Source of the DNA: Fimbriimonadaceae bacterium
Lineage (GTDB): Bacteria > Armatimonadota > Fimbriimonadia > Fimbriimonadales > Fimbriimonadaceae
Reading direction: 5' to 3'
Assembly (NCBI GenBank): GCA_019638675.1
Contig: JAHBTE010000001.1
Location: forward strand, 124,001 to 188,000
Length of the DNA: 64,000 nucleotides
Shown here: piece by piece, positions 44,061-45,260 of the stretch
How positions within the stretch are numbered: position 1 is the stretch's first letter
Layout: the number at the start of each line of letters is the position of its first letter
The notes under the pieces: model-generated
What the model was told of the DNA's origin: nothing
The model's database searches: none
The model's input: only the letters and a program-made list of their open reading frames with translations
Made by a program: the position numbers and the translations under genes

Positions 44061-44399
44061 GTGAAGAAGTGGCCCCGCATTCTGATAGCACTGGTGGCGA
44101 CGTGTACGGTCGCTGGCCCGTGTATGTGCGCCACTCTGAACCCATCCTGCGCTTGCCAAGCCCCGATTTCGGAAACCGTTTGCTGTGCTTGCGATGCAAG
44201 CAAATGCGAGTGCGAATGCTGTCAACCAGCGGTTGAAGAACGATCTGCCACTCAAACAACTGCTACTGTCGAGCAACCATCTGAACCTCAACTTTTAATT
44301 TCAGCTGTCTCCCAGGTTCAGCCAACCACCAATTTCTGGATTCCCAACGAGGCAATCCGAGAAACTTTTTCTCCCCGCGGCCCACCACGTTGCGCCTGA
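44061..44399 (+). CDS. Cys-rich exported protein, first gene of a metal-binding cluster
   Basis: A 112-residue protein with a signal-like N-terminus (KKWPRILIALVATCTVAG) and 13 Cys, twelve of them before residue 55 in dense groups (CCACDASKCECECCQ at 41-55). The C-terminal half is Gln/Thr/Pro rich with one Cys near the end. It starts with GTG at 44061; TATAAT at 44041-44046 lies 14 bp before it. The Cys density points to soft-metal binding such as copper or zinc outside the cytoplasm. A metallothionein-like gene follows after 61 bp. No named family recognised. Confidence 0.68.
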   Translation: MKKWPRILIALVATCTVAGPCMCATLNPSCACQAPISETVCCACDASKCECECCQPAVEERSATQTTATVEQPSEPQLLISAVSQVQPTTNFWIPNEAIRETFSPRGPPRCA

Positions 44400-44460
44400 A
44401 CAAGCGCAACACTCTGCCCGATTCGGGCCACGACGACACACAAAAAAGAAAAAAGAAAAA

Positions 44461-44604
44461 ATGTCAAACAACTGTTCAAACCCTAATTGCAAGTGCGAAA
44501 ACTGCACCTGCGGCGACAACTGCTCATGCACTACTTGCAACTGCGGCGCAGATTGCAAATGCACACCAGAGCAAAACTGCGGCTGTAAATGCTGTGAGAG
44601 CTAA
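44461..44604 (+). CDS. Metallothionein-like small Cys-rich protein
   Basis: A 47-residue protein, 15 of them Cys (positions 5, 10, 12, 15, 17, 21, 23, 26, 28, 32, 34, 40, 42, 44, 45), mostly as C-x-C and C-x-x-C pairs (NCKCENCTCGDNCSCTTCNC). There are no aromatic residues and few hydrophobic ones, which is the composition of metallothioneins that sequester zinc, copper or cadmium in the cytoplasm. It has no signal peptide, unlike its upstream neighbour. Its stop is 2 bp before the next ATG. An A-rich tract rather than a clear Shine-Dalgarno precedes its ATG. It is too short for most ORF cutoffs. Confidence 0.85.
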   Translation: MSNNCSNPNCKCENCTCGDNCSCTTCNCGADCKCTPEQNCGCKCCES

Positions 44605-44606
44605 AC

Positions 44607-45260
44607 ATGACTAAAATCGCGTTAGCGATGGTGATGGCTGCCTTTGGCAGCCACGCCATCGCGCAAGAACAAACTACGCAACAGCAAAGCGGCTCGGAAC
44701 AAAAAGGTTCGGGCCAAGCTTTGTGCCCCTTGTGAATAGCGGGCGGTTACGGGGCCAGTTCGGCCTCATTTAGCCCTTGGCTGATCAATACCGTTTACGC
44801 ACCTGGCTCTGTGACAGAAGCTGAAACTTTCGTTTGGTACCGACCTTCAACACGTATATCGCTAGGTATCGCCCACTTAGCGAAGCAGAATGCGTTTCGT
44901 TGGCTTGCCTCGGTGAATATCTCGCCTGAATCAGAAAATCTGCCAGCAATCAATGCTTCGGCGGGGGTTCAAGGAATCGGAACAGGAAATCCAGGCTACA
45001 GCTTGACCGCAGAGAAAAACTGGAATCTTTCTACTGGGAAGTTCAATAGTTTTCTCGGAGTTGGGTTTAGATCAAATGAAAACCACGCTCATGCAGTAGC
45101 GGGAGCTAAATACACACTAGAATCTGGAATCTCAATTGGCTTTCAGATGGACGGACATCAAACTCACCCGTTTATCACTTATAGCAAGGACAACTGGACG
45201 ACGGGATTCTTTCTCGTGGATGGAAAACAGCCTGCTTATATGTTCGGGCTTAAATTCTAA
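44607..45260 (+). pseudogene. Beta-barrel outer-membrane-like protein interrupted by one in-frame TGA
   Basis: From the ATG at 44607 the frame reads a good signal peptide (MTKIALAMVMAAFGSHAIAQ), a Gln/Ser-rich linker and ALCPL, then TGA at 44733-44735 (codon 43). The same frame stays open to 45260: IAGGYGASSASFSPWLINTV and on to a C-terminal PAYMFGLKF. The alternating polar/nonpolar strands and terminal Phe are typical of outer-membrane beta-barrels. Total 217 codons. It may be a nonsense mutant, a read-through or recoded gene, or a sequencing error; a GTG at 44811 could start only a truncated product. The Cys-Pro-Leu-X pattern and Cys-rich neighbours suggest X was Cys. See findings. Confidence 0.75.

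Follow-up and report, generated by a model that had tools for sequence, protein, structure and literature searches.

An inventory from 2026 of 119 selenoprotein families contains two outer-membrane barrels, one of the MtrB/PioB type and one TonB receptor (PMC13188914). The GSU2204-type MtrB/PioB protein (NF041027) is, like the product predicted here, an outer-membrane beta-barrel with one selenocysteine (Sec, U) (PMC13188914), but it contains CXXCH, whereas the present family has about 217 residues, a CPxU or UPxU motif and often two Sec. The TonB-dependent receptor of the FCYXU motif-type (NF049945) is likewise an outer-membrane protein with a CxxU-spaced motif; the present protein is instead modelled as a 12-stranded barrel, and had no curated-level match to the NF049945 model. 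None of the 119 families combines a CPxU/UPxU motif with the 12-stranded fold (PMC13188914), and when the barrel was compared with Pfam and NCBIfam models at the curated cut-off no family was matched. Incidental mentions were all that our literature search returned on selenoproteins of Armatimonadota, most subscription journals and preprints being outside its reach. Apparently, the proteins presented below form an undescribed family of bacterial outer-membrane barrel selenoproteins.

The window, i.e. the whole stretch of 64,000 nucleotides that was analysed, belongs to a genome of Fimbriimonadaceae-like lineage (Armatimonadota) and carries the following features:

44061-44399, plus strand: 112-residue Cys-rich ORF with a signal peptide-like start and a C-terminal end of the RGPP type
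44461-44604, plus strand: 47-residue metallothionein-like Cys-rich ORF, its stop 2 bases before the barrel ATG
44607-45260, plus strand: barrel selenoprotein gene (ATG 44607, TAA 45258-45260), assigned from sequence, orthologues, model and selection
44724-44735, plus strand: Cys-Pro-Leu-Sec motif, residues 40-43 (TGC CCC TTG TGA); Cys/Sec-Pro-x-Sec/Cys in 48 of 48 members of a set gathered by that pattern
44733-44735, plus strand: Sec UGA codon, residue 43; TGA kept in orthologues, Cys in SelB-less genomes
44751-44767, plus strand: predicted SECIS hairpin, 6 bp stem and loop AGUUC, the loop starting 21 nt past the UGA; assigned from covariation

Translated with UGA as Sec, the read-through product has 217 residues, beginning with a signal peptide and closing with a barrel whose last two residues are K-F. 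A preliminary description, made from this one sequence, had given the frame as 44607-45260, with a signal peptide, a TGA within C-P-L-X and a barrel with terminal Phe, and direct reading agreed with it exactly. Fifteen bases separate the TGA at 44733-44735 from the hairpin GGGGCC-AGTTC-GGCCTC at 44751-44767. TGA closes 6 of the 41 long frames in the window. A global reassignment of UGA was ruled out, as ordinary genes in the genome end with TGA; the codon is still an ordinary stop there, and the code has therefore not been globally changed.

A search of 61 related genomes returned orthologues in about 20 genera, with 33-60% identity. In nearly all of them a single TGA stands in frame, at the same codon, and several have two; close relatives read CPLU, and the orthologues with two TGAs read UPLU, UPIU, UPVU or UPMU. 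The 48 distinct members comprised 28 CPxU, 10 UPxU (two TGAs) and 10 CPxC forms (38 Sec versus 10 Cys), in a set gathered by a [CU]PxC/U pattern through which other residues at these places could not show up; among matches read individually, one divergent protein (L111, genome G069) has GPLT in place of the motif. Two genomes (G005 and G006), both with SelB, have a Sec copy and a separate Cys-only paralogue (CPVC; L043, L044). The systematic search covered Armatimonadota, and a phylum-wide profile search gave matches in 67 of 291 genomes. Scanning contigs with a single protein returned nothing, and scanning with an alignment of close members returned matches. Past the TGA the codons are under purifying selection (dS 0.64 and dN 0.086 for L019-L020; dS 0.51 and dN 0.01 for L055-L022). 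Aligning orthologues, a check that the preliminary description had proposed, gave TGA at the same codon in most and Cys in others, and its suggestion that X had been Cys was upheld in kind, since Cys occupies the same place in SelB-less genomes. The family thus has the mark of a bacterial selenoprotein, a conserved UGA with Cys replacement.

The absence of sel genes, also noted in the preliminary description, holds within the window but not for the genome, which elsewhere encodes selA (440.7 bits), selB (score above the cut-off, intact 611-residue frame), selD (342 bits) and a tRNA-Sec with anticodon TCA (UCA). The proposed look-up of selA, selB and selC in the genome thus found selA, selB and tRNA-Sec, and with selD the Sec machinery is represented. 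The selD gene (L049, C1:651775-652689, minus strand) is itself interrupted by an in-frame TGA, within NCAGUASK and with a hairpin after it, which makes SelD of this genome another probable selenoprotein. Of the genomes with a completeness of 90% or more, SelB was present in all 26 that have the TGA form and in none of the 8 that have the Cys form alone (G010, G158, G129, G130, G137, G138, G140 and G157; Fisher p 5.5e-8, kinship not corrected). A SelB match was missing in only three TGA carriers of this first family (G048, G126, G148), whose completeness is 68-88%; several of the compared genomes are MAGs. On the tree the Cys forms nest among the Sec forms and require two or more changes; the Sec protein L058 has as its sister group L031/L067, which have Cys and come from genomes with no SelB.

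Rules for the bacterial SECIS (bSECIS) specify a loop of 3-9 nt with G and then G/U in the first places, a stem of 4-16 bp, a spacing of 16-37 nt and an MFE at or below -7.5 (PMC13188914). The window hairpin conforms to them (AGUUC loop, 6 bp, 21 nt, -9.4 kcal/mol), and under the strict rules a hairpin was accepted in 26 of 38 Sec genes, in none of the 10 Cys genes and in 10 of 621 control stretches. The energy of the window hairpin alone does not differ significantly from that of synonymously recoded sequences, of which 292 in 2000 were as low, and the case for a SECIS therefore rests on covariation. In 26 sequences aligned without gaps, 97.4% of the stem cells are paired, five of the six stem pairs have changes on both sides, and loop positions 2-3 (G and U) are invariant; pairing falls to 31-55% when the partner is slid by 1-3 columns, and RNAalifold recovers the same stem unaided. 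The preliminary description had considered the hairpin weak and easily due to chance, which was fair for a single sequence of no unusual energy, but is contradicted by covariation across the 26. Judged from this comparison, the hairpin at 44751-44767 is a bacterial SECIS. A covariance model of it, run on its own genome, gave only the window's gene as a convincing match (E 1.4e-8), and therefore revealed no other selenoproteins there. In main-clade UPxU genes the distances from the hairpin to the two UGAs are about 21 and 30 nt and conform to the customary spacing. Members of a divergent clade (L042, L039, L106, L108, L109) have a GU-loop hairpin 40-48 nt past the UGA, which exceeds that spacing, and also extra codons ahead of the barrel.

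The genome also contains a distant homologue with two in-frame TGAs (L002:1273-1920; C1 near 830,300-830,950), the N-terminus of which reads PT-U-T-G-U-PGEG with TGA as Sec. Relatives of this second family (UTGUPGEG) are widespread, and the family had no match in Pfam, NCBIfam or the 119-family inventory. Profile comparison gave homology between the two families with 99.4% probability (E 1.5e-21), and the modelled all-beta strand order is similar to that of the first. In this second family a GU-loop hairpin, spaced as in the first, is 98.2% paired (50-72% in slid versions), albeit with weaker covariation, both-sided changes occurring in two of six pairs.

The AlphaFold2 model of the window protein has 12 strands (mean pLDDT 82.4). 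Its nearest solved folds are the outer-membrane barrels KdgM (Z 16.5), FapF (16.0) and NanC (15.2), with FapF as the best Foldseek match; no sequence match was found in PDB or Pfam, these three included, and only the fold is common. A signal peptide, a closed even-stranded barrel and a terminal aromatic residue are all predicted from sequence and model, and the 217-residue product is confidently modelled as an outer-membrane barrel. Given the even strand number and the terminal Phe, both termini would be periplasmic, and CPLU, which precedes strand 1 (pLDDT about 70 around it), would therefore lie either within the lumen or on the periplasmic side. His160, His162 and His184 are placed in or next to loops 156-160 and 182-188 of the model, on its presumed extracellular side. 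Among the 48 members, 26 have all three, 22 have none and none is mixed, and the set is missing from every Cys form. From this distribution the three His appear to behave as one site, with kinship contributing.

Cys-rich ORFs lie upstream of the barrel at many other loci and are missing at some. The RGPP/RAPP-type tail of the 112-residue ORF is common to its counterparts at other loci, and neither Cys-rich ORF of the window (44061-44604) had a Pfam or NCBIfam match. Directly downstream of the barrel, at about a dozen loci and in both families, is a gene for a protein of thioredoxin fold whose N-terminal part is YHS-like; in the window's own genome it follows the second barrel gene (L139:5464-6111). 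One locus pair (L163/L056) has the order second barrel, YHS-thioredoxin, two exported Cys-rich ORFs, first barrel. Regulators near the barrels are ArsR (L142, L143, L148), a CsoR-type repressor (L148) and MerR (L168), and other neighbours are a YHS/TRASH protein (L157) and DUF305 (L059), a domain of the copper protein CopM (PMC4335983). Such metal-related neighbours are missing at some loci, e.g. L057 and L070, and none is universal.

The commonest a priori cause of a single in-frame stop is a nonsense mutation in a young pseudogene or a read error, and the preliminary description had taken this as its default, with Sec recoding as a minor option. However, the same TGA stands at the same codon in orthologues from independent assemblies of many genera, which refutes the nonsense-mutation reading, and selection acts on the codons downstream; we consider either accident at 44733-44735 exceedingly improbable. 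The minor option has thus become the leading one, carried by the conserved TGA, the sel genes, the co-occurrence with SelB, the selection past the TGA and the covarying SECIS, which recurs in the second family. By comparative genomics, the in-frame stop is predicted to encode Sec and is almost certainly no mutation.

With regard to function, the main rival to a metal protein is a redox selenoprotein, in which a selenenylsulfide couple at the outer membrane would be reduced by the YHS-thioredoxin and act on substrates such as peroxides or oxidised envelope proteins. Where CxxU and UxxU occur in known selenoproteins, they mostly have a redox function (PMC13188914), and a thioredoxin-fold neighbour adjoins both families, but the other recurrent neighbours are metal-sensing regulators and Cys-rich peptides, and neither a thioredoxin fold nor any other enzyme domain is present in the barrel. 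We regard a redox role as unlikely, albeit a serious contender. Less likely still, and rather improbable, is a role like that of the amyloid exporter FapF, in which Cys-rich peptides encoded nearby would be exported or displayed by the barrel and the Cys/Sec motif would capture the cargo. Such a role would fit the rank of FapF as best Foldseek match (Z 16.0) and the Cys-rich ORFs directly upstream at many loci; on the other hand, equally high scores were obtained for KdgM, NanC and autotransporter barrels, so that the fold alone says little, the Cys-rich ORFs are missing at some loci, and no signal peptide is visible in the window's 47-residue peptide.

The reading that we prefer, and consider very probable as a whole, is that of an exported, Sec-bearing, 12-stranded barrel that is decoded by means of SelB and the hairpin and may handle metal. 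SelB bound to the hairpin at 44751-44767 would bring Sec-tRNA-Sec, with its UCA anticodon, to the UGA that starts at 44733, and the ribosome would yield an exported protein of 217 residues with an N-terminal Cys-Pro-Leu-Sec ahead of the barrel. Within the lumen or on the periplasmic side, the Cys/Sec pair might bind or gate an ion, perhaps with His160, His162 and His184, and the barrel would act with the exported Cys-rich peptides and the periplasmic YHS-thioredoxin often encoded alongside. The Cys-rich ORFs, YHS-thioredoxin, ArsR, CsoR-type and MerR regulators, DUF305 and YHS/TRASH neighbours, together with the all-or-none His set, point to soft metals, and a plausible role, to which we assign about an even chance, is accordingly that the barrel handles a thiophilic metal or metalloid at the outer membrane. 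More tentatively, and possible rather than probable, the barrel superfamily could form a selenolate/thiolate or di-selenolate soft-metal gate (CPxU, UPxU, UxxU) with the three His, as the metal-responsive outer-membrane part of a system with exported metallothionein-like peptides and YHS-thioredoxin, in which one SECIS serves two UGAs 9 nt apart.

A widespread and apparently undescribed selenoprotein superfamily is thereby added for Armatimonadota, every gene of which would be truncated at its TGA by standard stop-codon rules. The natural Sec/Cys replicates tied to SelB make it directly testable why Sec is kept, and the UPxU genes offer a test case for one SECIS serving two UGAs and for how UxxU is decoded. 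The family also extends the occurrence of Sec beyond soluble redox enzymes to predicted outer-membrane barrels of small size, which often have two such residues. Two Sec together with a link to metal are found as well in MbdU (NF045648) and the metal-binding NF041115 (UxxU), as in the UPxU forms and predicted role of the present family, but these have no sequence match to the window family, which is modelled as an outer-membrane barrel. KdgM/NanC and FapF have the 12-stranded outer-membrane barrel in common with the model of the window protein (Z 15-16.5); no Sec motif is listed for them and their function may differ from that of the window barrel. The copper transporter OprC has a Cys/His soft-metal site in an outer-membrane barrel (PMC11836926) and may be an analogue in its manner of working; the likeness would be one of analogy, and the window barrel would use Cys-Sec and three His.
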